From: Arenibacter nanhaiticus
Lineage (GTDB): Bacteria > Bacteroidota > Bacteroidia > Flavobacteriales > Flavobacteriaceae
Assembly: GCF_900141935.1 (NCBI RefSeq)
Contig: NZ_FQYX01000005.1
Coordinates: forward strand, 62,001-126,000
DNA: 64,000 bases
Direction: 5' to 3'
The notes beneath the pieces were generated by a model. The model saw only the letters and a program-made list of their open reading frames with translations. It was not told the DNA's origin and did not search any database. Positions 49,043 through 64,000 of this stretch are shown here, piece by piece. A program made the translations under genes and the position numbers. Position 1 is the stretch's first letter. Every line of letters starts with the position of its first letter.

Positions 49043-50440
49043 ATGGAATATCGTATAGAAAAGGACACCATGGGCGAGGTTAAAGTTCCGTCCGACAAAT
49101 ATTGGGGAGCACAGACTGAACGCTCTAGAAACAACTTTAAAATTGGTCCATCGGGCTCTATGCCTTTGGATGTTGTCTACGGTTTTGCATACTTGAAAAA
49201 AGCCGCTGCCTACACCAATCACGATTTAGGGGTATTGACCAAAGAGAAAAGGGATCTGATCGCGCAAGTTTGCGATGAAATTTTAGCCGGAAAGCACAAC
49301 GATCAGTTTCCGTTAGTTATTTGGCAAACAGGTTCTGGAACCCAAAGCAATATGAATGTCAATGAGGTGGTTGCCAACCGTGCGCATGAATTGGCAGGGA
49401 AAAAGATCGGCGAGGGCGAAAAAACCATTCAACCCAACGATGATGTCAACAAATCTCAGTCTTCCAACGATACTTTCCCTACGGGGATGCACATTGCTGC
49501 CTACAAAAAGATTGTAGAAGTTACCATTCCCGGGATCACCCAACTAAGGAACACTTTACACAAAAAGGCTCAGGAATTTGCCAAGGTCGTAAAAATAGGA
49601 CGTACCCATTTAATGGATGCTACTCCCCTTACCTTGGGCCAGGAATTTTCTGGATATGTTTCTCAATTAGACCACGGTTTACGTGCCTTGAACAACACTT
49701 TGGATCATTTAAGTGAAATGGCTCTTGGCGGTACAGCTGTAGGAACCGGATTAAACACTCCAAAAGGATACGATGTATTGGTCGCAAAATACATTGCCGA
49801 ATTTACAGGACTCCCTTTTAAAACGGCTGAAAACAAATTTGAGGCCCTTGCTTCGCACGATGCCATTGTAGAGAGCCACGGTGCTCTAAAACAATTGGCC
49901 GTAGCCCTTAACAAAATAGCCAATGATATTAGAATGATGGCTTCTGGACCTAGATCGGGAATCGGGGAAATTATCATCCCTGCCAATGAGCCGGGAAGTT
50001 CTATTATGCCTGGAAAAGTAAACCCTACCCAAAGCGAGGCCTTAACCATGGTTTGTGCACAGGTTATGGGGAACGATGTAGCGATCAGCGTTGGGGGAAC
50101 CCAAGGCCACTACGAGTTAAATGTCTTTAAGCCTATGATGGCGGCCAATATTTTACAATCTGCCCAATTACTTGGGGATGCCTGTGTTAGTTTTGACGAA
50201 AACTGTGCGGTAGGAATAGCGCCAAACCATCAGGTTATAAAGCAGCTATTAAATAACTCTCTAATGTTAGTAACGGCCTTAAACACAAAAATAGGGTATT
50301 ACAAAGCAGCAGAAATTGCCAATACGGCCCATAAAAACGGCACTACTCTTAAGGAGGAAGCCATCAACCTTGGGTATGTAACCGCTGAAGAATACGACGA
50401 ATGGGTCAAACCAGAAGAAATGGTAGGTAGTTTAAAATAA
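49043..50440 (+). CDS. fumC: Fumarate hydratase class II
   Basis: Iron-free fumarase of the citric acid cycle, fumarate to L-malate, 465 residues. Motifs: [19 protein letters not shown] (substrate site), [20 protein letters not shown] (catalytic His) and the superfamily signature [13 protein letters not shown] (about 316-328), which carries the catalytic Ser and Lys. Forms a cytoplasmic homotetramer in the family. The ATG at 49043 gives [20 protein letters not shown], the normal start. Single gene closed by a strong bidirectional terminator. Confidence 0.95.
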
Positions 50441-50470
50441 TTTGGTTTAATTACCAAAACACCGTTTATA

Positions 50471-50503
50471 AAAAAAGGCCAATCTAGAAAGATTGGCCTT
50501 TTT
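50471..50503. terminator. Bidirectional terminator after fumC
   Basis: GGCCAATC (50477-50484) / GATTGGCC (50491-50498), loop TAGAAA, A run before and T run after, so it serves fumC and the convergent coiled-coil gene. Confidence 0.9.
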
Positions 50504-50523
50504 ATTTTAATGGGTTTTAGATC

Positions 50524-51414
50524 TTATTTCAGTTGAAATTTAGAAGTCCCCAAAAGTTTTAGACGGTTATCATACACATTCACCATATAATTTCCTTTTT
50601 GAAATTCTCCTGTGGCAGGTTTGTCTATAAAATCACAAACATCCAGAGCGCGGTTTTCATAGTAAAATCCGGTTGCCTTGCTGTAAGTCACCATTCCGCC
50701 TGCATCGTTTGTTTTAGAAAAGCTCTCTCCCAAAACATTTCCTTGCGGGTCTAATACTTCTATAAAAAACTCCCTATCTCCGGCCTGTGTGATAATATTA
50801 TCGGCTACGGTAAAACATACTTTTAATTTGTCCGTTGCCTTGGCTCTAGAGGTAGAAACCAGCTTTCCACTAGAACGCTCTTTAATTGCATCTACCGAAA
50901 ACTTGGATAAGTTTAAGGCCGATCCTTTTTCAACAGCATCGGCTAATTGAGTGTTTTGAACTACTAGCGAATCATTAAAAACAGTTTGTCTTTCCAATTC
51001 GACATAGGTACTATCGCGTTGCATGGCCAAATAAGAATTGGATCTGGTCAAAGAATCGACTTTTCTAAGTAGTTGCTCTCTTTCCTTGGTCAATATTCCC
51101 ACTTGCTTTCTATAGCGGTATAGAGAACTGATATCTGCTTTCATGGTTTGTACCGAGTCTATGTATTTGGCGATATTGTCACGTGCAGAAACCAACTCCT
51201 CGTTGGTGGCATTACTCTCTAAGATTGCCTTATCGTACTCCGACTTTAAACTAGTCAAATCTTCAACGACCAATTCTTTTTCTTTGGTCAGTAAGGCAGT
51301 AGTTTTTTGTTTGTCCTGATATAAACTTACGGTATAGATCAGCACTCCAATTAAGACAACCCCTAATAACCCCGCGATAACTTTTAATCCATTATTGCTT
51401 TTTGCTTCTGTCAT
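50524..51414 (-). CDS. Membrane-anchored coiled-coil protein of unknown function
   Basis: 296 residues. A short cytoplasmic N-terminus and one transmembrane helix (VIAGLLGVVLIGVLIYTVSL, about 11-31) are followed by a long coiled-coil (about 32-165, heptads through KEKELVVEDLTSLKSEYDKA and LTKEREQLLRKVDSLTRSN) and a C-terminal beta domain (LKVCFTVADNIITQAGDREF ... GNYMVNVYDNRLKLLGTSKF). The layout is common in Bacteroidota, where such proteins are sometimes misnamed chromosome-partitioning proteins. It may be a periplasmic scaffold. Own transcript; convergent with fumC. Confidence 0.75.
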   Translation of the reverse strand: MTEAKSNNGLKVIAGLLGVVLIGVLIYTVSLYQDKQKTTALLTKEKELVVEDLTSLKSEYDKAILESNATNEELVSARDNIAKYIDSVQTMKADISSLYRYRKQVGILTKEREQLLRKVDSLTRSNSYLAMQRDSTYVELERQTVFNDSLVVQNTQLADAVEKGSALNLSKFSVDAIKERSSGKLVSTSRAKATDKLKVCFTVADNIITQAGDREFFIEVLDPQGNVLGESFSKTNDAGGMVTYSKATGFYYENRALDVCDFIDKPATGEFQKGNYMVNVYDNRLKLLGTSKFQLK

Positions 51415-51579
51415 AATCTAAATTATTATTTATTTCTTTTGTTATTTTTTTTTTAAAAACATTACAACCATATGTATATACGATCTAATGATGTTTTTAG
51501 ATTCCTACAGTATATAAATATTTTCATACCAAATTTATAAAATGAATTGTTAACTTTATACTTATTATACTTTTATTCT

Positions 51580-52047
51580 ATGAAGTCATTAAAAATCCTT
51601 CCTTTTAGTTCCCAATATGCTGCAGATTTCAAAAATCTTAACATAGCGTGGCTAGAGCAGTACTTTTATGTTGAACCAAAAGATATCAATCTTTTGGAAA
51701 ACTGCGAAGAAACCATCATAAATAAGGACGGATTCATCTATTTTGCGCAATACAACGATGAAATTGTAGGATGTTTTGCATTGTTACAATTGAGTCCCAC
51801 AGAATATGAACTAGGAAAAATGGCAGTGACCACCAAATATCAAGGATTAAAAATTGGTCAGACGCTTATGAACTTTGCCATAGAATTTGCCCATCAAAAA
51901 CAATGGCACAAACTTGTTTTATATTCTAGCACCAAATTAGAGAATGCCCTTCATATCTATAGAAAATATGGTTTTAAGGAGGTAGTACTAGAAAGCGATA
52001 TCCCGTTTGATCGCAGTGATATAAAAATGGAACTGGTTTTAGATTGA
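51580..52047 (+). CDS. GNAT-family N-acetyltransferase
   Basis: 155 residues from the ATG at 51580; 11 more open codons upstream are hydrophobic and not part of the fold. The acetyl-CoA loop is YQGLKIGQTLM after the strand YELGKMAVTTK, and the late motif is ALHIYRKYGFKEV. Acceptor unknown. The N-terminal EQYFYVEPKDINLLENCEE resembles a small group of bacterial GNATs with an N-terminal acidic stretch. An MBL-fold lipoprotein gene follows 38 bp later. Confidence 0.88.
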   Translation: MKSLKILPFSSQYAADFKNLNIAWLEQYFYVEPKDINLLENCEETIINKDGFIYFAQYNDEIVGCFALLQLSPTEYELGKMAVTTKYQGLKIGQTLMNFAIEFAHQKQWHKLVLYSSTKLENALHIYRKYGFKEVVLESDIPFDRSDIKMELVLD

Positions 52048-52085
52048 AGCCTTGATTCTTCTTACTAATTTAAAATAATATAGTC

Positions 52086-52886
52086 ATGACCTATACTAGC
52101 AAAACAATCATCTTTAATATTATAGGCTGTGTACTGTTATTTAGCTGTAAGGATTCGCCTAAGACATCTCAAAAGGAATCTGAAGCACCCACGGTCACTT
52201 CTTATCAAAAAGCACCTACCTTGACCATTACACCAATAGAACATGCTACAGCTGTTCTACAATGGGACGATATCACCATTTATATTGATCCGGTTGGTGG
52301 AAAAGATGCTTTTAGGAATCAAAAGGAAGCAGATTTGATATTGATTACCGATATCCATGGCGATCATTTTAGCCTTTCTACCCTAGAAGCATTAAACACC
52401 CAGAAGGCAAAAATAATTGTACCACAGGCCGTCGCCGATAACATCCCTTCAGAATTCACACCTCTATTGGATATTCTAAACAATGGCGATAGTAAGGAAC
52501 GCTTTGGAATTACCATAGAAGCTATCCCTATGTACAATCTTCGGGAAGCTGCCAAAGACTTTCATCCCAAGGGTCGCGGCAATGGTTATATCTTAAGTAA
52601 AAACGGCACTAGGATTTATTTTTCCGGGGATACGGAAGATATACCTGAAATACGGGCTTTACAGAACATAGACAAGGCTTTTATTTGCATGAACCTACCC
52701 TATACCATGACGGTCGAAAGCGCCGCCGATGCTGTATTGGCCTTTAAGCCCAAGGAAGTCTACCCTTATCATTACAGAGGTAAACCCGAAGTTAGCGATG
52801 TCCTTCAGTTTAAAAAATTGGTCAATGAAAAGGATTCAACCATAAGGGTCGTACAGTTAGATTGGTATCCTAATGAGGAGTACTAA
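52086..52886 (+). CDS. MBL-fold metal-dependent hydrolase lipoprotein
   Basis: 266 residues. Lipoprotein signal (TSKTIIFNIIGCVLLFSC, Cys about 20), then a UlaG-like lactonase fold: TITPIEHATAVLQWDDITIY, IYIDPVGG, the metal motif TDIHGDHFS (H-x-D-H form), YFSGDTEDIPE and the C-terminal YPYHYRG. Membrane-tethered in the periplasm or at the outer membrane. The substrate is unknown; relatives act on lactones, phosphoesters or NAPE-like lipids. It ends before a hairpin that serves the convergent ettA gene. Confidence 0.87.
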   Translation: MTYTSKTIIFNIIGCVLLFSCKDSPKTSQKESEAPTVTSYQKAPTLTITPIEHATAVLQWDDITIYIDPVGGKDAFRNQKEADLILITDIHGDHFSLSTLEALNTQKAKIIVPQAVADNIPSEFTPLLDILNNGDSKERFGITIEAIPMYNLREAAKDFHPKGRGNGYILSKNGTRIYFSGDTEDIPEIRALQNIDKAFICMNLPYTMTVESAADAVLAFKPKEVYPYHYRGKPEVSDVLQFKKLVNEKDSTIRVVQLDWYPNEEY

Positions 52887-52890
52887 TAAT

Positions 52891-52924
52891 AAAAACGGAT
52901 CCCTAAAAAAAAATCAGGGATCCG
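52891..52924 (-). terminator. Rho-independent terminator of ettA
   Basis: Minus strand: CGGATCCCT / AGGGATCCG (9 bp), loop rich in T, then TTTTTATTATTAG, 23 nt after the ettA stop. Confidence 0.85.
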
Positions 52925-52947
52925 CGGTATTAAAGTTACAGGGACTA

Positions 52948-54639
52948 TTATCTAATTAACTTTTTATATTTAAGTCGCTTAGGGATTAAATCGCCGCCCA
53001 AACGTTTCTTTTTGTTTTCTTCATATTCCGAGAACGACCCTTCAAAGAAATACACTTGAGAATCCCCTTCGAAGGCCAAAATATGGGTACAGATCCTATC
53101 TAAAAACCAACGGTCGTGGGAAATCACTACCGCACATCCGGCAAAATTCTCCAAACCTTCTTCTAAAGCTCGCAAGGTATTCACGTCCAAGTCGTTGGTA
53201 GGCTCATCTAACAGCAACACGTTACCTTCTTCTTTTAAAGTCATGGCCAAGTGCAAACGGTTACGTTCCCCACCAGAAAGCATGCTTACTTTCTTGTTTT
53301 GTTCACTTCCCGAAAAATTAAAACGACTTAAATAGGCTCTTGAGTTCACTTGTCTACCAGCCATCATAATCAGCTCTTGCTCATCGCTAAAGTTCTGCCA
53401 TATAGTTTTCTCAGGATCAATATTTGAATGGCTCTGATCTACGTAGGCTATCTTAGCTGTTTCACCCACGATAAACTCACCTTTATTAGGGGTCTCCTCT
53501 CCCATTATCATTCTAAAAATAGTTGTCTTACCAGCACCGTTAGGTCCGATAACCCCTACTATTCCCGCCTGTGGAAGTTTAAAATTCAAATCTTCATAGA
53601 GCAATTTATCGTCATAGGCCTTACTTACCCCTACGGCTTCAATAACATTGGTTCCCAATCTTGGGCCATTGGGGATATAAATCTCCAATTTCTCATCCAA
53701 TTGTTTTTGATCCTGACTCATTAATTTGTCATAGTTCTGCAAACGGGCCTTTTGTTTGGTTTGGCGTCCTTTTGCTCCCTGACGTACCCAATCGAGCTCT
53801 CTTTCCAAGATTTTCTGGCGTTTAGAAGCTGTTTTGCTCTCTTCGGCCATACGCTTAGATTTCTGATCTAACCAGCTTGAGTAATTTCCTTTCCAAGGAA
53901 TACCCTCGCCTCTATCCAATTCTAAAATCCAACCAGCAACGTTATCCAAGAAGTATCTATCGTGGGTTACGGCAATTACCGTTCCCTTATATTCCGCCAA
54001 ATGATGCTCTAACCAATGTACCGACTCGGCATCCAAGTGGTTGGTAGGCTCATCGAGCAATAATATTTCTGGCTCTTGCAACAACAATCGACAAAGGGCC
54101 ACACGTCTTTTTTCCCCTCCAGAAAGAACGCTAATTTTCTTATCTCCATCGGGCGTACGCAAGGCATCCATCGCTATTTCTAACTTGGTGTCGAGTTCCC
54201 AAGCATTGGAGGCGTCAATTTTATCCTGCAGTTCTGCCTGTTTGTCCATAAGTTTTTGCATTTTATCTGCATCCTCATAAACTTCGGGCAGGCCAAACAT
54301 ATCGTTTATCTTGTTGTACTCGTCCAAGATAGCAACGGTTTCGGCAACACCTTCTTTGACTATTTCCAATACTGTCTTGTTCTCGTCCAATTGGGGCTCC
54401 TGTTCCAAGTACCCTACTTTATACCCTGGCGAAAAAACGACATCACCTTGGAAGTTTTTGTCTACCCCGGCAATAATTTTTAACAAGGTGGATTTACCAG
54501 AACCGTTAAGTCCTAAAATTCCAATTTTGGCGCCATAAAAGAAACTTAAATATATATTCTTTAATACTGGAGTATTCGCAGTCTTATACGTTTTCGTAAC
54601 CCCAGACATGGAGAAAATCACTTTCTTGTCGTCTGACAT
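52948..54639 (-). CDS. ettA: Energy-dependent translational throttle protein EttA (ABC-F)
   Basis: ABC-F ATPase, 563 residues, two nucleotide-binding domains without membrane segments. Walker A: GLNGSGKST and GPNGAGKTT; signature LSGGEKRR and LSGGERNR; Walker B LLLDEPTNHLD and LLLDEPTNDLD. The linker (about 245-325, with WLDQKSKRMAEESKTASKRQ) is the P-site tRNA interaction motif, and the arm insertion in domain 1 (about 95-150) is of EttA size. It binds the ribosomal E site and couples initiation of elongation to the ATP/ADP ratio. It stands alone. Confidence 0.94.
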   Translation of the reverse strand: MSDDKKVIFSMSGVTKTYKTANTPVLKNIYLSFFYGAKIGILGLNGSGKSTLLKIIAGVDKNFQGDVVFSPGYKVGYLEQEPQLDENKTVLEIVKEGVAETVAILDEYNKINDMFGLPEVYEDADKMQKLMDKQAELQDKIDASNAWELDTKLEIAMDALRTPDGDKKISVLSGGEKRRVALCRLLLQEPEILLLDEPTNHLDAESVHWLEHHLAEYKGTVIAVTHDRYFLDNVAGWILELDRGEGIPWKGNYSSWLDQKSKRMAEESKTASKRQKILERELDWVRQGAKGRQTKQKARLQNYDKLMSQDQKQLDEKLEIYIPNGPRLGTNVIEAVGVSKAYDDKLLYEDLNFKLPQAGIVGVIGPNGAGKTTIFRMIMGEETPNKGEFIVGETAKIAYVDQSHSNIDPEKTIWQNFSDEQELIMMAGRQVNSRAYLSRFNFSGSEQNKKVSMLSGGERNRLHLAMTLKEEGNVLLLDEPTNDLDVNTLRALEEGLENFAGCAVVISHDRWFLDRICTHILAFEGDSQVYFFEGSFSEYEENKKKRLGGDLIPKRLKYKKLIR

Positions 54640-54859
54640 AATTTTAGTTGTTTAAAATTTTAATTTTGTTTTGTTCGTTTTGAAATTACTCATTTATAGT
54701 TTTAACACTTAGGACAGTAATGGCATATCATTATGGATTTAATTTCTGGCCATAGCACGATCTCCACAGAATAGAAGTGGTAAACTCCTTACTTCTGGAA
54801 CTATTAACGCATACCTAGTAGGCACCTAATTGCCTTAGACCGGAAATTGCACCCTGTAC

Positions 54860-55042
54860 TTACACTCTTCCTTTTAGCGCATTAAAAACCCAAGCAATTG
54901 CAAAGAAACCAATGCCTACCGAGGCAAATCCCCATCCTGCGACATCATCGTATCTAAAAGCCCCTAAGGCAATAAGTGCCAGACCTACGACTATCATAAT
55001 AAAGGTTGCCCAAGCAAGTACTGTGTTCTTATTCATTCCCAT
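54860..55042 (-). CDS. CAL67264-family small membrane protein
   Basis: 60 residues with ATG at 55042, or 58 from the ATG at 55036, the usual family start (NKNTVLAWATFIMIVVGLAL). Two transmembrane segments (about 8-27 and 33-54) joined by FRYDDVAGW. It matches what is known to me as the CAL67264 family, conserved in Flavobacteriia, function unknown. It lies between ettA and the broken oxidoreductase gene, on the same strand as both; no clear promoter. Confidence 0.8.
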   Translation of the reverse strand: MGMNKNTVLAWATFIMIVVGLALIALGAFRYDDVAGWGFASVGIGFFAIAWVFNALKGRV

Positions 55043-55116
55043 CTTTTAATTGGTTTAATTTGTAGCGTTCAAATATCGTAATTTTTAGATAATAACATCC
55101 TTCTAAAACGAAAACT

Positions 55117-56100
55117 TTAGCGTTCAAAAGGAAAGACGATTCCGCTTTGGCTGCGCACCAAATCCAATATCCCTATTAAATCCAAACTATTTTGATGACT
55201 CCAAAGGTCACTCTTCAATTTTCCCTGCCTAATACAATCGTTTACCTCCATGATTTCATAATAATACCCTCTTCCTTCGGTTGGTATTGGAAAAACTTCT
55301 ATCTCATTATTTTTTTCTACGCTATACCCCTGTGCCTCATGCCATCTGGGCTGTATACAGATAACACCTTTTTCTCCAGAAATTTCGGCTTTCATAGAAG
55401 ATTTACTATTAAAACCCGAATACAATATGGCCTGTGCTTGGGGATATTTAAAAATCATGGACGTTTGTACTTCCACACCATTCTCATGAAAACTAGAGGT
55501 TGACAAGACTTCCTCCGGAACACCAAGTAGTATATAGGATAGAAAAGCAGGATAAATTCCAACATCAAGAAGAGAGCCACCGGCCAGTTCTGGATTCATC
55601 ACCCTTCCCTTTAAATCCCGATCCATGGCATAAAAGGCAAAATCGGCATGTACAAAAGCAATATCGCCTATCTCTTTGTTGTCTACCAACTGTTTTACTT
55701 TCTAAATAGCAGGGTTAAACCTACTCCAAAGAGCCTCCATTAAAAACACTTTATTTTCTCTGGCACAGGCAATCATCCTTTCTACTTCATCCTTATTTAC
55801 CCCTAATGGTTTCTCACAAAGTACATTCTTTTTGTAGTTCATGGCCATGAGTGCAACACTGACATGGAAGGTATGGGGAGTCGCAATATATACCACATCT
55901 ACTTCTTCACACTGCAATAAAGATTCATAACTCCCAAAAGCCTGTTTTACATGATATTGGGAAGCAAACTGGTTTGCCTTTTCTATATTTCTCGATGCTA
56001 CTGCGATAATTTCGGCATCGTTCACCATGGCAAGGTCCTTCACAAAATTATGTGCTATATTACCTAAACCAATAATTCCCCAACGTATTTTTTGTCCCAT
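55117..56100 (-). pseudogene. Gfo/Idh/MocA-family oxidoreductase broken by an in-frame TAG
   Basis: A single frame of 327 sense codons from the ATG at 56100 to the stop at 55117, interrupted by TAG at 55702-55704. The first part has the Rossmann motif GIIGLGNIAHNFVKDL, VVYIATPHTFHVSVAL and CEKPLGVN (catalytic Lys). After ...RFNPAI the stop follows, and KVKQLVDNKEIGDIAFVHAD continues the fold with the C-terminal domain intact to IVFPFER. One base change (for example CAG or AAG to TAG) explains the break. A fragment starting at TTG 55689 would not make an enzyme. A sequencing error, recent inactivation or stop suppression are the options. It is divergent from the carboxylase gene. Confidence 0.88.
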
Positions 56101-56173
56101 TTTGCAATTCATTTTGTCAAAGTTAATCAATATTACTCCTTATCTTTATTGCCTTATAGAAACTATAATAAGA

Positions 56174-57802
56174 ATGGATATCAACTTCAATAAAAACGAA
56201 GATCACAATAAACTTCTTCTTTCGGGACTTAATAAAAAATTAGCAAAGGTATATATGGGCGGCGGTAAGGGCCGCATAGAAAAACAACACGCTCTTGGCA
56301 AGCTAACAGCAAGGGAGCGAATAGATTACCTACTAGACAAGGACAGGGATTCTATTGAGGTAGGTGCCTTTGTTGGTGATGGTATGTATGAGGAACATGG
56401 TGGGTGTCCTTCTGGCGGTGTAGTGATAAAAATAGGCTTTGTCAAGGGCCAACAATGTATAGTGGTTGCCAATGATGCTACGGTTAAAGCCGGCGCTTGG
56501 TTCCCTATTACTGCAAAAAAAAACCTACGCGCTCAAGAAATTGCCATAGAAAACCGCCTGCCTATCATTTACTTGGTAGACAGTGCTGGGGTATACCTTC
56601 CTATGCAGGATGAAATTTTCCCGGACAAGGAACATTTTGGAAGAATTTTCAGAAACAATGCCGTGATGAGCAGTATGGGTATTACGCAAATTTCGGCCGT
56701 CATGGGCAGTTGTGTTGCCGGTGGAGCTTATCTGCCAATTATGAGCGATGAGGCTTTGATCGTAAACAAAACTGCCAGTATATTTTTAGCGGGCAGTTAT
56801 TTAGTGAAAGCCGCCATTGGGGAAGTCATAGACAATGAAACCCTTGGTGGGGCAAGTACCCATTGCGAAATTAGCGGGGTAACTGATTACAAGGCAAAGG
56901 ACGATAAACACGCCCTGGATACCATTAAAAATATAATGGACAAAATAGGCGATTTTGACAAGGCAGGTTACAATAGAAAGGCGGCTATAAAACCTGCTTT
57001 AAAGGAGGAGGACATATATGGTATCCTCCCTAAGTCTCGATCGGACCAATATGATATGCTCGAAATTATTAAGCGATTGGTAGACGATTCCCAATTTGAA
57101 CAATACAAGGAAGGGTATGGAAAAACCATACTCACCGGTTACGCCCGTATAGATGGCTGGGCCGTGGGTATTGTGGCCAACCAACGCAAGGTGGTGAAAA
57201 CTACCAAGGGAGAAATGCGCTTTGGGGGGGTTATCTATTCTGAATCTGCCGATAAGGCAACCCGTTTTATTGCCAATTGCAACCAAAAGAAAATACCATT
57301 AGTGTTTTTACAAGATGTAACGGGGTTTATGGTAGGGAGTAAAAGCGAACATGGTGGCATTATTAAGGACGGAGCCAAGATGGTCAACGCTGTAAGCAAC
57401 TCTGTAGTACCTAAATTTACCATTGTGGTAGGCAACAGTTATGGCGCAGGAAATTATGCCATGTGTGGCAAGGCGTACGATCCTAGGCTTATTGTAGCTT
57501 GGCCCAGTGCCGAACTTGCCGTAATGAGCGGAAATTCGGCCGCCAAGGTATTGTTGCAAATAGAAACTGCCTCTCTTAAGAAAAAGGGAGAAACTATTAC
57601 TCCGGAAAAAGAAGCAGAACTTTTTAACAAGATAAAGGCCCGATATGATCACCAAATATCTCCTTATTACGCGGCTTCCCGTCTATGGACAGACGCCGTA
57701 ATTGATCCTTTGGACACTAGGAAATGGATTTCCATGGGAATTGAAGCAGCGAACCATGCGCCAATCGAAAAGCCATTTAATATGGGGGTTCTTCAGGTGT
57801 AA
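56174..57802 (+). CDS. Acyl-CoA carboxylase beta (carboxyltransferase) subunit
   Basis: 542 residues from the ATG at 56174; a 49-codon extension upstream overlaps the oxidoreductase gene and is rejected. Two crotonase-like halves: N-terminal GGGKGRIEKQHALGKLTARE and SGGVVIKIGFV; acyl-CoA oxyanion-hole region VMGSCVAGGAYLPIMSDEAL; C-terminal VVGNSYGAGNYAMCGKAYDP and WPSAELAVMSG. This resembles methylcrotonyl- or propionyl-CoA carboxylase beta chains, which take CO2 from biotin. The biotin carboxylase/BCCP partner is not in the window, so the substrate is open. A strong terminator lies past its stop, inside menE. Confidence 0.9.
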   Translation: MDINFNKNEDHNKLLLSGLNKKLAKVYMGGGKGRIEKQHALGKLTARERIDYLLDKDRDSIEVGAFVGDGMYEEHGGCPSGGVVIKIGFVKGQQCIVVANDATVKAGAWFPITAKKNLRAQEIAIENRLPIIYLVDSAGVYLPMQDEIFPDKEHFGRIFRNNAVMSSMGITQISAVMGSCVAGGAYLPIMSDEALIVNKTASIFLAGSYLVKAAIGEVIDNETLGGASTHCEISGVTDYKAKDDKHALDTIKNIMDKIGDFDKAGYNRKAAIKPALKEEDIYGILPKSRSDQYDMLEIIKRLVDDSQFEQYKEGYGKTILTGYARIDGWAVGIVANQRKVVKTTKGEMRFGGVIYSESADKATRFIANCNQKKIPLVFLQDVTGFMVGSKSEHGGIIKDGAKMVNAVSNSVVPKFTIVVGNSYGAGNYAMCGKAYDPRLIVAWPSAELAVMSGNSAAKVLLQIETASLKKKGETITPEKEAELFNKIKARYDHQISPYYAASRLWTDAVIDPLDTRKWISMGIEAANHAPIEKPFNMGVLQV

Positions 57803-57873
57803 CACACCTTTTTAGAACCACTTAAGCCATGGCAAGGTGCAAGGTTTTTACCCTTTGCACCTTGCCATTTTTT
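57795..57873 (+). terminator. Double terminator of the carboxylase gene, the second inside menE
   Basis: First hairpin AGGTGT/ACACCT with TTTTT overlaps the stop codon (57795-57813). Second: a perfect 14-bp stem, ATGGCAAGGTGCAA (57829-57842) / TTGCACCTTGCCAT (57855-57868), followed by TTTTTT. The second stem codes for the menE C-terminus on the other strand. Confidence 0.85.
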
Positions 57874-58895
57874 GTTTCTACAAATTCATGGACGGAAAAA
57901 ATCTCCTTGGGTATTTCAAATTTGGTAAGTGTGTGCAGCGATTTAATTCCTTGCCAAAGCGCTTCGACACCCCTATTCCCTTCTACTACCAGCACTAATT
58001 TTTGACCCAAAGTTTTGTCTGGAATCCCGGCCACAAAGAACCTTGACGATATCAATTCGGACAATTTGGTTTCTATTTGCTCTGGCACCAATTTGATTCC
58101 CCCTGAATTTATTATATTATCGAATCTTCCCAACCATTGGAATTCGGTATCCGAAACAAGGTGCACCACATCATTTGTTATCACCTTTTCGTTGGATATT
58201 TGGGGCGCATCGATCACCAGGCAATTTCTATTGTCCGTTGCCAAGGACACTTGTGGAAGGGCTATAAAATTACCACTGCCTTCCCTGGCCGTATCATTGA
58301 TTCTCTTTGCCGCGATATGGGTTATGGTCTCGGTCATCCCATAAGTCTCATAGATATGGGTATTGATGTATTGAACACTGTTTTTCAGTTCTATCGACAT
58401 CGGTGCCCCTCCAATAATCACAACTCCTATTTGGCTTATTTTATCCAAGGAATTCTCCAATTGCAAGGGAATCATAGCCGAAAAATCATAATATACACCA
58501 CTGGGAATCAGCGGTCTTGAACTTGGCGGAACACATGTTATTTCCCAACCCAACACCATGGCTCTTACCAGCATCATTTTACCTGCTATAAAACTGCTTG
58601 GCATGCAATGCAATGCCTTTGTTCCCGGTCCTAGATTAAAAAAACCTCCGGTAGCCATGGCAGAATTGTACATCTTTATTTTTTCAAGGAAAACTTTTTT
58701 AGGTGCCCCGGTAGATCCCGAGGTATGTACTGGAATCATTGGGGAACCGTCACACCAATCCAATAAAAAATCACCTATAACCTTTTCAAAGTCCGCTCCT
58801 TCTTTTACCAAGGAATAGCCTAGTTCTTTTAAATCGGCCCCCTTACAAGCGTGGCCGTTAAATTTAAATTTCGGATGAACCATATGGTAGGCCAT
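57822..58895 (-). CDS. menE: o-Succinylbenzoate-CoA ligase-like AMP-binding enzyme
   Basis: ANL-superfamily ligase, 357 residues, short as in other Bacteroidota MenE. P-loop HTSGSTGAPKKV (about 57-68), YETYGMTETITHIA (A5 motif), LGRFDNIINSGG and the C-terminal catalytic lysine in NGKVQR. It adds CoA to o-succinylbenzoate in menaquinone synthesis. The identity rests on length and on menC two genes upstream. It is the last gene of menC-CPBP-menE; the gap to the CPBP gene is 7 bp. Its last 14 codons form the stem of the convergent carboxylase terminator, with the catalytic Lys inside. Confidence 0.88.
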   Translation of the reverse strand: MAYHMVHPKFKFNGHACKGADLKELGYSLVKEGADFEKVIGDFLLDWCDGSPMIPVHTSGSTGAPKKVFLEKIKMYNSAMATGGFFNLGPGTKALHCMPSSFIAGKMMLVRAMVLGWEITCVPPSSRPLIPSGVYYDFSAMIPLQLENSLDKISQIGVVIIGGAPMSIELKNSVQYINTHIYETYGMTETITHIAAKRINDTAREGSGNFIALPQVSLATDNRNCLVIDAPQISNEKVITNDVVHLVSDTEFQWLGRFDNIINSGGIKLVPEQIETKLSELISSRFFVAGIPDKTLGQKLVLVVEGNRGVEALWQGIKSLHTLTKFEIPKEIFSVHEFVETKNGKVQRVKTLHLAMA

Positions 58896-58902
58896 GATCT
58901 GA

Positions 58903-59844
58903 TTAATTTTCTGTTAAGAATTGCTCCTGTGGCATCACTTTTCCAGTAAGACGCTCTTTCCAATTGTTCCAACCGTATTTTTTAGAAAAAACAAAGAGTA
59001 AAATAGGATACACTACCAATACAGGCACAAACACGTCCCATCCCAGTTCCGGTTCTGAAATATCCCTAAAAATAGAATTGGTCTGGAAGGCTGTCCAATC
59101 GGCCGTGACCAATAAGGCTGTTATTAAATTATTGGCGGCATGAAAACCTATGGCCAACTCCAAGCCTTCATCCATTAGAGTTAAAATGCCTAGAAAAAAC
59201 CCCGTCCCTATATAATACACCATAATTCCAATACCTAGTTTTTCTACTTCGGGATTGAATAGATGTAGCAATCCAAAAACAGAAGAGGTAATCACCAAGG
59301 GAAACCACCTATTCCGGGCTATTAAGCCCAGACCTTGCATCAGATATCCTCGCATAAAATATTCCTCAAAACTTGTTTGGATCGGAATCAGCAGCACTGA
59401 TATTACTAGGAGTATCAAAAATGGCTGTAATTCAAAATTAAAGGTATAATCATCTGGAGACAAATAAATATCAACACCCATAATCACTACTGTAATCACG
59501 GCCCAGAGTCCGAATGCAAAAAATACTCTTTTCCAATCTACTTTTTTCCTAGAAGTAGTCAGGGACACCAAGCTTTGGTTGTGCAAAAATTTGCAACTAA
59601 TAAAGGTTGCTACCAGGCCAAAGGCAAAGGAAAGCAGCATTAAAAACAAAAATAGATTGGTACCGATAACTTGGGACATCTGAGTGAGATCCATCGGTAT
59701 CTCATCACCACCCAAAGATTTAAAAATTACAACACCCACAAGAGGTATAGCCCCTATAACCTGCCACCCTAAAAATACAAGGAGCACTCCTACAATGTAG
59801 CGCCATGATTCGTGATTCCCTTTATACCCTTGTTCTATATACAT
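58903..59844 (-). CDS. CPBP-family intramembrane glutamic endopeptidase
   Basis: 313 residues from the ATG at 59844 (nine more open codons upstream). About eight hydrophobic segments; the CAAX-protease/bacteriocin-processing motifs are EEYFMRGYLMQGL (EExxxR), FGLLHLFNP (FxxxH) and HAANN (HxxxN). It is an inner-membrane protease of unknown substrate. It sits between menC and menE: its start overlaps the menC stop by 10 bp and menE follows by 7 bp, so all three are translated from one mRNA. Whether it has a role in quinone synthesis or only rides along is unknown. Confidence 0.9.
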   Translation of the reverse strand: MYIEQGYKGNHESWRYIVGVLLVFLGWQVIGAIPLVGVVIFKSLGGDEIPMDLTQMSQVIGTNLFLFLMLLSFAFGLVATFISCKFLHNQSLVSLTTSRKKVDWKRVFFAFGLWAVITVVIMGVDIYLSPDDYTFNFELQPFLILLVISVLLIPIQTSFEEYFMRGYLMQGLGLIARNRWFPLVITSSVFGLLHLFNPEVEKLGIGIMVYYIGTGFFLGILTLMDEGLELAIGFHAANNLITALLVTADWTAFQTNSIFRDISEPELGWDVFVPVLVVYPILLFVFSKKYGWNNWKERLTGKVMPQEQFLTEN

Positions 59845-60887
59845 ATTTCCTCTATTAATTTTGTGTTCCAATTTTTATTTTTATCGTAACTGATGGCCCC
59901 ATTCCCAACTGTTAAAGGGCTATCTATATTATTAGTGTACAGGCTGCCGGTCCCCAATCCCTGCGGCAAAGTATTCTTTAAGGTGTAGGTCCATTGTGCA
60001 ATGGCATTTAGCCCTATATTGCTTTCCAGTGCACTGGTAACCCACCATTGAATTCCTAGTTTTTCTGCTATATCTATCCATTGCTCACTGCCTTTAAAAC
60101 CCCCAACCAAACTAGGTTTTAGAATAATATAGGGAGGCCGAATGGTTTGTAGCAGTTCTTCCTTTTTTGTTACATCGGAAACCCCTATAAGTTCTTCATC
60201 CAGAGCAATAGGCAATGGTGAGTTTTCACATAATTCCCTCATTGCAAGAGGGTTTCCCGCCTTTATAGGCTGTTCTATGGAATGCAAATTATATTTGGAC
60301 AGGCGCTGCAATTTCCCCAAGGCTTCTTCTGGCGAGAAGGCGCCATTAGCATCGACCCGAAGGGAAATTTCTTGCTCGCTATATTCTTTTCTTATCGCTT
60401 GTAAAAGCAATAGTTCACGCTCAAAATCAATAGCCCCCACCTTCATCTTTATACAGTTAAAACCTTGTTTCAGTTTCTCCTGTATTTGTTGGTGCATAAA
60501 CTTTTCATCTCCCATCCATATGAGACCGTTTATGGGAATACTTTTTTCTTTAGCGGTGAATTCTGAAGGAAACAATAGAAAAGGATTAGCAGCATTCAGG
60601 GACAAGAAAGCCTGTTCTACCCCAAATTGAATGCTTGGATAAGGGAGCAACTTATCCCAAAGCGCTTCTTTTCCCAAGTCCACATTATCACAGGTCCATT
60701 GCAAAACCTCCTCATACTCTGGACGGTCATCGGCACTCAAGCCTTTTAATAGACCACATTCCCCAATGCCGAATTTTCCATTTTTATGAAGAATAATAAA
60801 CCAGGTTTCTTTTTGTACCAATATTCCTCTAGAAGTACCACTGGGATTTTTAAAGTTTAAAACGTATTTTTTGTAACTAGCTTTCAT
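59835..60887 (-). CDS. menC: o-Succinylbenzoate synthase
   Basis: Enolase-superfamily dehydratase of menaquinone synthesis (SHCHC to o-succinylbenzoate). 350 residues. The catalytic lysine pair is at CIKMKVGA (KxK-type), the metal ligands are in LRVDANGAF (Asp), SIEQPI (Glu) and IALDEELIG (Asp/Glu), and the second-half lysine is in IILKPSLVGG. It is close in sequence to dipeptide epimerases, but the linkage with menE favours menC. First gene of the menC-CPBP-menE operon; R2 copy 3 ends 9 nt before its ATG. Confidence 0.88.
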   Translation of the reverse strand: MKASYKKYVLNFKNPSGTSRGILVQKETWFIILHKNGKFGIGECGLLKGLSADDRPEYEEVLQWTCDNVDLGKEALWDKLLPYPSIQFGVEQAFLSLNAANPFLLFPSEFTAKEKSIPINGLIWMGDEKFMHQQIQEKLKQGFNCIKMKVGAIDFERELLLLQAIRKEYSEQEISLRVDANGAFSPEEALGKLQRLSKYNLHSIEQPIKAGNPLAMRELCENSPLPIALDEELIGVSDVTKKEELLQTIRPPYIILKPSLVGGFKGSEQWIDIAEKLGIQWWVTSALESNIGLNAIAQWTYTLKNTLPQGLGTGSLYTNNIDSPLTVGNGAISYDKNKNWNTKLIEEICI

Positions 60888-60896
60888 ATGGAGCTA

Positions 60897-60979
60897 TTAT
60901 TGTTTTTTAACGGTCATATATAATTTACATAGCTAAAATTGTCTTTTGCCACAAGTCTTAGGTCATGTTCATTTCCCAT
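60897..60979 (-). repeat. R2 dispersed leader repeat, copy 3 (before menC)
   Basis: Minus-strand repeat from ATGGGAAATGAACATGACC (about 60979) to a short ORF, ATG ACC GTT AAA AAA CAA TAA (60917-60897). The menC ATG follows after 9 nt. Confidence 0.65.
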
Positions 60980-61494
60980 GAAGCTGTTTCTTGTTCCGCA
61001 TCTTAGTTATATAGATTTCTGAAAGGCCTATAAAAGCCAAATTTAGGGATATTTTAATTCTTACAAAGAAGGAAAGAAGCATTATTAAAGCAAGAATCCC
61101 CAAGACCCTACGACAGCCCTTTTTATGCCATTATCTATGTCAAGTGACATTGTTACCTGGTGCTTAAAAAAAACTTTTTTTAGCTTTTTTAGTCGATCAT
61201 AGTTACCAACAGATTCAGGGTATTCAATTGCTGGAATCCAACAAAAAAAAGGTATGCCCTTATGTTATTGACGTGATAAAATGGTCTTTAACATAAGGGC
61301 ATCCTATAAATTACAAAGAAGTGTGGTAGGGTAGCCTTATAAAATTAAACATCCCTATAGCATCTAGCTTACAGGTTGGGCCTGAATTTTATCTGCCCCC
61401 TGCTTTGCAAACAGCTTTCCTTGATCCTTTTTCCCCCTTGGTTTCCCAAGTATTATTTATTTTTAATTGATTATTGTTAGCTGTTCACTGAAAA
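60980..61494. other. Gene-poor stretch upstream of menC
   Basis: About 515 bp, AT-rich, with no convincing ORF, promoter or structure. It lies between R2 copy 3 and R1 copy D. Confidence 0.4.
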
Positions 61495-61574
61495 GCGTTA
61501 GGGATCGCAGCGGCATCCCCGAAGTGGAGCGAGGGATATAGCGAAGCGCCCGCCCGACGAAGGAGGGAACGCCC
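61495..61574 (+). repeat. R1 structured repeat, copy D
   Basis: 80 bp, GCGTTAGGGATCGCAGCGGC ... GGGATATAGCGAAG ... GACGAAGGAGGGAACGCCC. The last 20 bases equal copy A. Closing stem GCGTT/AACGC; hairpin 1 ATCCC/GGGAT. It lies 70 bp from R2 copy 4. Confidence 0.75.
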
Positions 61575-61623
61575 AAAAAAGCAGCCAATAAACGGTAAAC
61601 AAGGGTATTGACTTTGTCATCTA

Positions 61624-61726
61624 TCAGATATTCATATACAGACGTTTATTGCTTTTTAGCGGTCATATAAAATTCGCATAACTAAAGTCCTATTTACGAC
61701 CAGTTACGGTCATGCTCATTTCAAAT
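61624..61726 (-). repeat. R2 dispersed leader repeat, copy 4 (without a gene)
   Basis: Minus-strand copy from TTTGAAATGAGCATGACCG (about 61726) to the short ORF ATG ACC GCT AAA AAG CAA TAA (61666-61646). As in the other copies an ATG follows 10 nt later (61635), but it is closed after three codons (ATG AAT ATC TGA). Confidence 0.6.
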
Positions 61727-61799
61727 ATAATAAAATGATATCTTCATTAAGAACCAGATTTTGCTCCTGATCTGTGTTATACCTTAAACCAAATCTTTC

Positions 61800-62480
61800 T
61801 TACACCATCACGGACTCCCCTATTTTTGGTAACAGCAATTCTTTTCCGGCATCAGAAAACTGTTTTAGGGCATCTTTTTGATCTATGACAATGTACCCGA
61901 AAGTATCGTAATGGTACCCTAAAACCTTATCGCATTCTATAAAGTCCGATGCCATCACGGCATCTTTAATACCCATCGTAAAATTATCCCCAATAGGCAG
62001 CACTGCCAAATCTAAGCTGTGGGACAATGGAATTAATTTCATATCCATGGTCAATGCCGTATCTCCAGCAATATAGAGCTGTTTTCCTTTAGAAGAAATT
62101 ATAAATCCGCCTGGCTGACCACCGTAAGATCCATCCGGAAAGGAAGAAGTATGGACAGCATTAACGTACTTAAGGCTTCCAAAATCAAAATCGAAACTAC
62201 CCCCATGGTTCATAGGATGTACTTTAATTCCTTTATTCCCGTAATGGGTAGCAATCTCGTAGTTACTAATGACCACGGCGTTCGTATTTTTAGCGATCTG
62301 TTCTACATCCAAGGTATGGTCTTGATGGGCATGGGTTACCAGAATATAATCCGGGTCCAAATCATCGAGCGTTACTTTTCCGGCCACTTTTTCGTTGCCA
62401 GAAATAAATGGATCTACCAATAATTTTTTACCATCGGCCAAAATCATTAGGGAGGCATGTCCTAGAAAGGTAATTTTCAT
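61800..62480 (-). CDS. UlaG/YtkL-like metal-dependent hydrolase (MBL fold)
   Basis: 226-residue cytoplasmic metallo-beta-lactamase-fold enzyme with no signal peptide. It starts KITFLGHASLMI, then LLVDPFIS, the metal motif VTHAHQDHTLD (HxHxDH), MNHGGSFDF, AVHTSSFPDG, LYIAGDTALTMDM and a C-terminal CDKVLGYHYDTFG. This is the UPF0173 pattern found across bacteria; the natural substrate is not established. It follows the histidine kinase gene by 21 bp on the same strand, so it may be co-transcribed with it. Confidence 0.9.
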   Translation of the reverse strand: MKITFLGHASLMILADGKKLLVDPFISGNEKVAGKVTLDDLDPDYILVTHAHQDHTLDVEQIAKNTNAVVISNYEIATHYGNKGIKVHPMNHGGSFDFDFGSLKYVNAVHTSSFPDGSYGGQPGGFIISSKGKQLYIAGDTALTMDMKLIPLSHSLDLAVLPIGDNFTMGIKDAVMASDFIECDKVLGYHYDTFGYIVIDQKDALKQFSDAGKELLLPKIGESVMV

Positions 62481-62501
62481 AGAATTTGTTTTTCCTCAAA
62501 G

Positions 62502-64000
62502 TTATTTAAAATTGAACCAAAAACGAACTCCTTCCTTAGTTTTATCGATGTTTAGTGTAGACTGTAATTGATTTACCAAACGATTCATAAGCCTTATCCC
62601 CATAGAGGAATTAGCTCTTTCACTACTATCCTCTGGCAAACCAATTCCGTTATCCGTATATTCAAAATACCCCTTCTCACCGTTTTTACTTAAATGGATA
62701 TGAATTTTGCCGTTCTCATCATTATCAGGAAAGGCATATTTAAAGGAGTTAGAAACAAGTTCGTTCAATATAAGTCCAAACGGAATAGCTCTATCAATAT
62801 CTAACTCGACCCCTTCTGCGTCTATAAATATATTTATATTATGACCCCCTTTTTTATATACCGATTGCACACTATTGATGAGGCTTTCGATATATTCTTG
62901 CATTTCGATGACCGAAAGATCATCGTTTTGATATAGTTTCTGGTGTATTAAGGCCATGGCTTTCACCCTTGTTTTCCCTTCTTCCAAAGCTTGAATAGCG
63001 GCCTTGCTTTTGGTGTTTTTGGTTTGCAGACTCAACAAACTAGAAACCATTTGAAGATTGTTCTTTACCCTATGGTGAATTTCTTTCAACAGTGAATCCT
63101 TCTCTATCAGGGCCGATTCTATTATTTGTTTTTGTTCTGCAATCAGGCGTTGTGTTTTTATACTTTTTAGATAGGCATACACCACAGCAGCAAACCCCAA
63201 TAAGGTAAACACCAAAGAAATAAATACAATATTTATACGTTCGTCCTTTGCCTGCATTTCGCTTCTAGATTCTTCAAGGGCAATTTTCTGCTCATCCATT
63301 AACCTTTTGGAATACTCAATTTCCTGTCCTGCTACCGCAGCCAATTGTTGTTTTTTTAGACCAGCATCACTTTGGTTTAGGGAATCCCGTATTTTTACTG
63401 TTCTTTTTAGATACTCTGTAGCATTTTTAAAATCGCCGATTTTATCATAATACGCCGCCAAGAGTCGATTCCTTTTTATAATATTTTGAACTTTTACAGG
63501 ATAATCGCCATATAAAAGAAGTTTTTTGGCTTTTTCAAATTCCTCTTGCTGCAAATAGACATCCGCCAATTCTAAGGAGTTCTCATTTTTTTCGGAAGAA
63601 TATTTATTGGAACTATATTCCCCAATAATAGCTATGGCACTCTCTAGCTCTAGGGCAGCGATATCGTATTCTTTTAACCGGGCGTAACACTTGCCTATAT
63701 TTCCTTTTATAATCCCCTTAAGGTAGTTGCCCTTAATAAGTTCTTGTTCGGACTTTTGTCGACTTATATCATTTAAATACACATCTATAAATCCTTTTGC
63801 TTGTTTAAAATTGGTCAAGGCAACCGCTGTAGACATATCTAAAAGCAAATAGGTCCCTATATTGTTCAAATATTCGGCCTGGGCATAATAGTCACCTTCC
63901 CGAACGGTTTTCAGCATGTCTTTAATGTAATCTTCCATAGCCTTTCGATGGAGACCCAAATTGGAATAGATATCATAAAAAACAATTTTATCGGTAAGCC
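62502..64000 (-). CDS. TPR-containing sensor histidine kinase, HisKA_2 type (partial, 5' end outside window)
   Basis: The frame is open to base 64000, so the N-terminus is missing; about 499 residues are visible. TPR-like helical repeats (to about residue 210 of the visible part, for example YAQAEYLNNIGTYLLLDMST) are followed by one transmembrane helix (IVFISLVFTLLGFAAVVYAY), the HisKA_2 phospho-acceptor helix IHHRVKNNLQMVSSLLSLQT and a HATPase domain with LNELVSNSFKYAFP (N box) and YTDNGIGLPED (G1 box). The TPR part is probably periplasmic. Related kinases pair with LytTR or other response regulators; none is in the window. Confidence 0.9.
   Translation of the reverse strand, partial: LTDKIVFYDIYSNLGLHRKAMEDYIKDMLKTVREGDYYAQAEYLNNIGTYLLLDMSTAVALTNFKQAKGFIDVYLNDISRQKSEQELIKGNYLKGIIKGNIGKCYARLKEYDIAALELESAIAIIGEYSSNKYSSEKNENSLELADVYLQQEEFEKAKKLLLYGDYPVKVQNIIKRNRLLAAYYDKIGDFKNATEYLKRTVKIRDSLNQSDAGLKKQQLAAVAGQEIEYSKRLMDEQKIALEESRSEMQAKDERINIVFISLVFTLLGFAAVVYAYLKSIKTQRLIAEQKQIIESALIEKDSLLKEIHHRVKNNLQMVSSLLSLQTKNTKSKAAIQALEEGKTRVKAMALIHQKLYQNDDLSVIEMQEYIESLINSVQSVYKKGGHNINIFIDAEGVELDIDRAIPFGLILNELVSNSFKYAFPDNDENGKIHIHLSKNGEKGYFEYTDNGIGLPEDSSERANSSMGIRLMNRLVNQLQSTLNIDKTKEGVRFWFNFK

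Follow-up and report, generated by a model that had tools for sequence, protein, structure and literature searches.

Among the closest described counterparts of the structure reported here are the intrinsic terminators that TransTermHP and Term-seq studies have catalogued at convergent gene pairs: in both, a hairpin and U tract come just after a gene that faces another. Those terminators are intergenic, however, whereas the present hairpin lies wholly in the codons of the opposite gene, menE, and recurs in the motif-bearing tail of that gene. According to passages of a Zymomonas study, 3' ends that coincide with predicted intrinsic terminators are enriched in the convergent class (PMC7566282), and part of a report on Rickettsia prowazekii states that most of the convergent transcripts tested did not stop at a specific site between the two genes (PMC3027695).

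Three further systems invite comparison. The introduction of PMC4824070 mentions some terminators that reach into upstream genes, along with numerous ones predicted within coding sequence; these, too, are terminator-like structures in codons, but as presented there they would cut the mRNA of the gene that contains them or overlap the gene that is ended, while the codons concerned here are part of the gene on the other strand. Bidirectional terminators likewise place one hairpin at a convergent junction, with a U tract on both strands, whereas the menE hairpin would serve the plus direction alone. The paired DNA-uptake sequences that act as terminators in Neisseria and Pasteurellaceae are, in the relevant part of PMC1852404, also tail-to-tail inverted repeats with a second job; they consist of a repeated genomic motif, which the arms of the menE hairpin do not. 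With regard to position, passages of PMC4824070 report that in E. coli a terminator few bases after a stop codon is almost completely repressed and that termination is maximal once the stop-to-hairpin distance exceeds 27 nt. The menE distance is near this measured limit, with the difference that the E. coli study, in the same passages, used engineered spacers with tR2, whereas here evolution would set the distance through opposing codons. A word-matched literature search covering few subscription journals, and including the searchable text of PMC7566282, PMC3027695, PMC12207403, PMC8745188, PMC4824070, PMC1852404 and PMC7366714, returned no account of terminators recurring within the codons of an opposing gene.

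The convergent junction and its hairpin

The window, i.e. the whole 64,000-nucleotide stretch of DNA analysed, contains the following features.

56168-57802, plus strand: carboxyl transferase (acyl-CoA carboxylase beta-like) gene (open reading frame; PF01039, E 6e-145)
57803-57821: 19-bp gap between both stop codons
57822-58895, minus strand: menE-like acyl-CoA/o-succinylbenzoate ligase gene, 357 amino acids (PF00501; NCBIfam MenE models below cut-off)
57829-57868, plus strand: predicted terminator hairpin, 16 pairs with an 8-nt loop, entirely in menE codons Asn343-Met356
57852-57866, minus strand: GKVQR codons, the C-terminal lysine motif (Lys345) of the enzyme class, within the hairpin
57868-57877, plus strand: U tract TTTTTTGTTT, whose minus strand encodes ETKN, directly before GKVQR
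59835-60887, minus strand: menC-like gene (o-succinylbenzoate synthase)

The start codon of the carboxylase is our choice within the open reading frame 56027-57802. An AMP-binding domain is recognised in the product of the facing gene (PF00501, 58.8 bits against a cut-off of 29.9), and the best NCBIfam matches of this gene are o-succinylbenzoate--CoA ligases below their cut-offs, the curated MenE models not being reached (TIGR01923, 103 of 330.15 bits; NF005877, 115.2 of 345). The menE name is supported by the nearby menC-like gene, which supplies a menaquinone neighbourhood and scores just below the TIGR01927 cut-off (126.4 bits against 130.55). The protein is best described as a MenE-like AMP-binding enzyme. 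Its nearest solved relative is 4gs5, and alignment to solved relatives matches GKVQR with GKLQR of 2-succinylbenzoate--CoA ligase (3ipl) and GKIQR of oxalate--CoA ligase (5ie0). We take the lysine of the motif, Lys345, to be catalytic.

The first-pass annotation had reported a perfect 14-bp stem followed by a T run, and both are present. Two arms of 14 nt, 57829-57842 and 57855-57868, show 100% complementarity, and in the terminator scan two more pairs, one of these G-U, give a 16-pair stem with an 8-nt loop and the tail TTTTTGTTTC. The T run, then GTTT, comes directly after the hairpin, the U tract TTTTTTGTTT and the 16-pair stem sharing one base, the first of the tract and the last of the stem. 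The stretch 57822-57873 is bounded by the menE stop codon (57822-57824) on one side and by the final T of the run (57873) on the other, and the whole hairpin falls within the final 15 codons of the menE-like gene. It is the sole 16-pair example among the 15 sites that the scan gave in 50000-64000, by a terminator score modelled on the d'Aubenton-Carafa formula. Further strong terminator-like hairpins in the window, of 12 and 14 pairs, lie at 52895-52925 (minus strand) and 50472-50503 (plus strand), respectively. For the plus strand of 57800-57890 the folding energy is -29.9 kcal/mol, compared to -12.2 (sd 2.6) for shuffled sequences (z -6.9; 0/200 as good). The structure thus combines a stable, G/C-containing hairpin, a U-rich tract right after the stem and a position 27 nt past the carboxylase stop, as in an intrinsic terminator. 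The hairpin lacks the U tract on both strands that marks a bidirectional terminator: none is present on its minus strand, where no terminator candidate was found in 57401-57900.

The same annotation held that the minus strand of the hairpin encodes the MenE lysine motif. This is the case: on the minus strand, AAT GGC AAG GTG CAA AGG GTA AAA ACC TTG CAC CTT GCC ATG GCT TAA translates as NGKVQRVKTLHLAMA, the end of the protein, with GKVQR at 57852-57866. Its further suggestion, that two unrelated constraints act on the same bases, was right in kind, with the modification that the motif accounts for one arm while the other arm lies in a species-variable tail.

A search of the organism's own genome with up to two mismatches to one 16-nt arm returned both arms, three other sites and nothing more. 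With so few arm-like sites the hairpin is no dispersed repeat, and a repeat element or uptake sequence was ruled out, the arms not being found repeated elsewhere in the genome. A scan of 55500-60000 against Rfam gave nothing at gathering scores.

We propose, with a probability of roughly 0.87, that the hairpin acts as an intrinsic (Rho-independent) terminator of the plus-strand carboxylase gene, placed in the convergent menE 3' end by the short gap, with menE codons and tail fitted to it by selection. The stop codons being 19 bp apart, a hairpin within the gap would still lie under the ribosome as it completes the carboxylase; the structure would for this reason sit beyond the gap, 27 nt past the stop, and the gap being too short it would be pushed into menE codons. 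Selection would have fitted those codons and the variable C-terminal tail in such a way that the antisense RNA folds and U residues follow, without loss of GKVQR from the minus strand, and RNA polymerase would stop at the U tract. The annotation's reading of a terminator for the carboxylase is thus supported computationally, as far as sequence can tell, and to it are added recurrence, dependence on neighbour direction, strand-specific codon choice and near-constant spacing.

Recurrence at menE 3' ends

In all, 214 menE 3' ends were read; the family survey covered 130 of the 183 genomes with a match (30 loci, then 100). Genes and neighbour direction were taken from longest open frames rather than annotator calls. 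Genome repeats (L050, L058, L059, L195, L196, L198, L200, L209 and L241), two paralogues (L019 and L020) and a locus with a cut gene (L223) were left out; at four of the 214 ends the flank was too short to assign a neighbour. A scored hairpin with U tract lies within menE at 27 of the 106 ends whose neighbour is convergent and at 0 of the 104 before a codirectional gene, raw counts that are inflated since the sequences are related. L213 and L220, one convergent and one codirectional, have the hairpin in neither case and both lack the KIQRxxTL(D/E) peptide considered below; both were omitted from the tree of 114 rows, which includes 16 of the 20 T3 sequences defined below. On its supported branches there are about three informative independent pairs, each agreeing with expectation (median p 0.25 by sign test).

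The hairpins belong to three designs, found in separate parts of the tree. T1 comprises the window and its sister species. T2 is confined to one genus and has an 11-pair stem in KATLxK(V/I) codons, kept in 9/9 sequences of which just six pass the score. T3 comprises 20 sequences from four genera, encoding KKIQRxxTLD; one has too little flank, leaving 19 among the 27. Partner genes vary: a carboxylase in T1 and T2, and in T3 SecA, YebC, a zinc-ribbon-like protein or a weakly LuxR-like protein, the latter two called under or near Pfam cut-offs. Related bacteria thus appear to have reached the embedded arrangement more than once.

The nearest named match, Arenibacter sp. 6A1 (L050, which is also locus L002), keeps the hairpin and U tract at the same place, with one stem change (A-U to G-U in the plus RNA) and one loop change. 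Between the two species 1 of 12 hairpin codons differs, compared to 43 of 299 synonymous-capable codons elsewhere; with so few sites the pair alone shows no synonymous constraint, and conservation in the sister species is by itself weak evidence. Among 16 further genomes of the genus are nine in which a carboxylase faces menE across gaps of 108-304 bp, with no terminator scored, and seven in which the carboxylase is absent from the fetched flank. At six loci of the genus (L005, L007, L008, L009, L012 and L016) the space between carboxylase and menE, 156-304 bp, is occupied by degenerate AT-rich units such as AATGTACCAATG; the terminator scan scored none in these gaps.

The idea that relatives with the same layout keep the stem pairing held in part. 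Pairing is retained in the sister species, and two other groups pair with different stems, but 26 of the 36 convergent carboxylase-menE loci are without a scored hairpin, three of the 26 belonging to the T2 genus, where the stem is kept with a sub-threshold score. Since 15 of the 25 carboxylase-menE loci with a gap below 60 bp score no terminator, the convergent layout does not require one. At eight loci from some of the genera (L026, L051, L168, L038, L139, L151, L159 and L173) the convergent carboxylase and menE genes share 4, 12 or 26 bp at their stop-codon ends, and no carboxylase terminator was scored there. L162 and L142 have hairpins across the menE stop codon with the T tract inside menE. 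That of L162, with A and T tracts at its two sides, looks closer to the bidirectional type and may serve both directions. In L203 the body of menE is close to that of L211 and L212, whose tails read KKINRKATLN, but the tail has the T3 hairpin type; the 3' end of this gene may have been exchanged.

Within a sample of 385,594 bases from the organism's own genome, window included, embedded hairpins occur at 2/30 close convergent ends, 0/54 wider ones, 0/175 codirectional ends and 0/259 mid-gene positions. The second example (L192, own genome C60, 17950-17982) is a 13-pair hairpin with TTTCTTTTTTT in the final codons of a gene presumed to be ComEC-like; it lies 23 nt beyond the stop codon of the large convergent gene, which we take to be transporter-like. 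Embedded terminators are thus, on this case, not confined to menE.

Codon choice, strand and competing explanations

The conserved peptide might bring about the pairing as a mere by-product: its GK-I/V-QR and TL-D/E codons happen to be partly complementary, and A-rich Lys codons leave a run of T on the opposite strand. We regard such an origin as highly improbable. The peptide does predispose to pairing, in that 1-4% of the synonymous redraws made for T3 peptides reach the threshold. When the window's protein was kept and codons were redrawn from menE usage, however, 0.7% of draws passed the threshold and 0/3000 matched the real score; in 30 of the 31 sequences tested the figure was at most 0.73%, the exception being the T2 sequence L068 (5.4%). 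A by-product would also be at odds with the absence of the hairpin from all 104 codirectional ends.

Peptide-matched loci, i.e. all sequences with KIQRxxTL(D/E) except those of T1 and T2, the hairpin not being a criterion, bear on the same question. At the 24 convergent loci the 192 cells comprise, in the plus RNA, 156 Watson-Crick pairs, 22 G-U, 1 A-C and 13 others, against 107.9, 26.8, 17.9 and 39.4 expected from codon usage. The seven codirectional loci pair about as codon usage predicts, as a by-product would, with 33 Watson-Crick, 10 G-U, 7 A-C and 6 others in 56 cells, against 31.5, 7.8, 5.2 and 11.5. Codon choice thus deviates from usage at convergent peptide loci and not at codirectional ones, contrary to what a by-product of the peptide would give. 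In T3 the plus strand reads TCCAAYG...CGTTGGA in all but one sequence, followed by seven or eight T. Its Ile codon is ATC in 20/20 cases, compared to 104 of the 929 Ile codons (11%) elsewhere in menE at the 37 peptide-bearing loci, and its Leu codon TTG in 19 and CTG in one of the 20, while the two loop codons vary. The 11-pair stem of T2 is paired in 98/99 cells, the exception being in L068, and its nine-pair stem in 81/81 (71 Watson-Crick, 10 G-U); codon usage alone yields 9/9 pairs in 8% of draws per sequence, and covariation in T2 is not above that of shuffles (183/500 as high).

Equally improbable, in our estimation, is a role for the hairpin in the menE mRNA, for example in 3'-end protection or in slowing ribosomes at the last codons. 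The minus strand does fold well (-32.6 kcal/mol, z -5.2), but a G-U pair in the plus RNA corresponds to a C-A mismatch in the menE mRNA, and it is the plus-RNA G-U, not its converse, that the relatives have. Since A-C in the plus RNA is G-U in the menE mRNA, depletion of A-C tells which strand matters: T3-type convergent loci have 22 G-U against 1 A-C (beside the 13 other mismatches) and the nine-pair T2 stem 10 against 0. The lack of a minus-strand U tract, and of any candidate on that strand in 57401-57900, also stands against a menE role, as does the dependence of embedding on the direction of the neighbour.

Least probable of all is that the inverted repeat is a functionless mutational product of hairpin-templated copying of one arm, a process which could be the origin of the stem, given arms exact over 14 nt and a second arm in a tail differing from that of other species, but which leaves unexplained the neighbour-direction dependence, the 24-31 nt spacing and the codon bias of other groups, and which sits poorly with retention of stem and U tract in the sister species.

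The residue before the motif lysine is Lys at 30 of 97 convergent loci with a readable motif, compared to 2 of 79 codirectional ones, and in a 41-row clade a hand count on the tree finds the hairpin in 16/28 rows with KK and 0/13 others. Gly-to-Lys as a general rule was set aside, the independent tree pairs being too few and mixed (one or two in the expected direction, none or one opposed); the change accompanying the T3 hairpin may be one inherited change. A related idea, which we hold to be possible though doubtful, is that the antisense of the motif is a ready-made terminator, recruited when a gene faces menE too closely, and that in one clade a change of Gly to Lys (AAA AAA) before the catalytic lysine lengthened the opposing U tract, the active-site motif being bent to the neighbour's transcription.

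Spacing from the partner stop and its implications

Under the proposed reading as a terminator for the facing gene, the position of the hairpin would follow from ribosome clearance. The distance from partner stop to hairpin start, 27 nt in the window, is 24-31 nt in 19 of the 27 embedded hairpins; the remaining values are 9, 12, 13, 20, 20, 55, 285 and 768, with six of the 27 lying outside 20-31 nt. Gap and depth inside menE trade off (r -0.73), as in the combinations 19+8, 22+6, 11+16, 8+19 and 5+22, and their sum falls within 25-31 in 17/23 cases against 6.0 in permutations, related sequences being counted separately. For comparison, 23 of the 41 scored terminators in the own-genome sample start 20-29 nt past a stop. 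Our inference is that the stop-to-hairpin distance is set by ribosome clearance.

Terminators are usually sought between genes, and one residing in the conserved codons of the opposite gene could go missed or be scored as background. Synonymous changes in menE would, at such loci, alter the neighbouring gene. Because the same gene end has or lacks the hairpin according to the direction of its neighbour, the menE family offers a natural experiment on two codes sharing the same bases, and on ribosome clearance setting terminator position outside E. coli.
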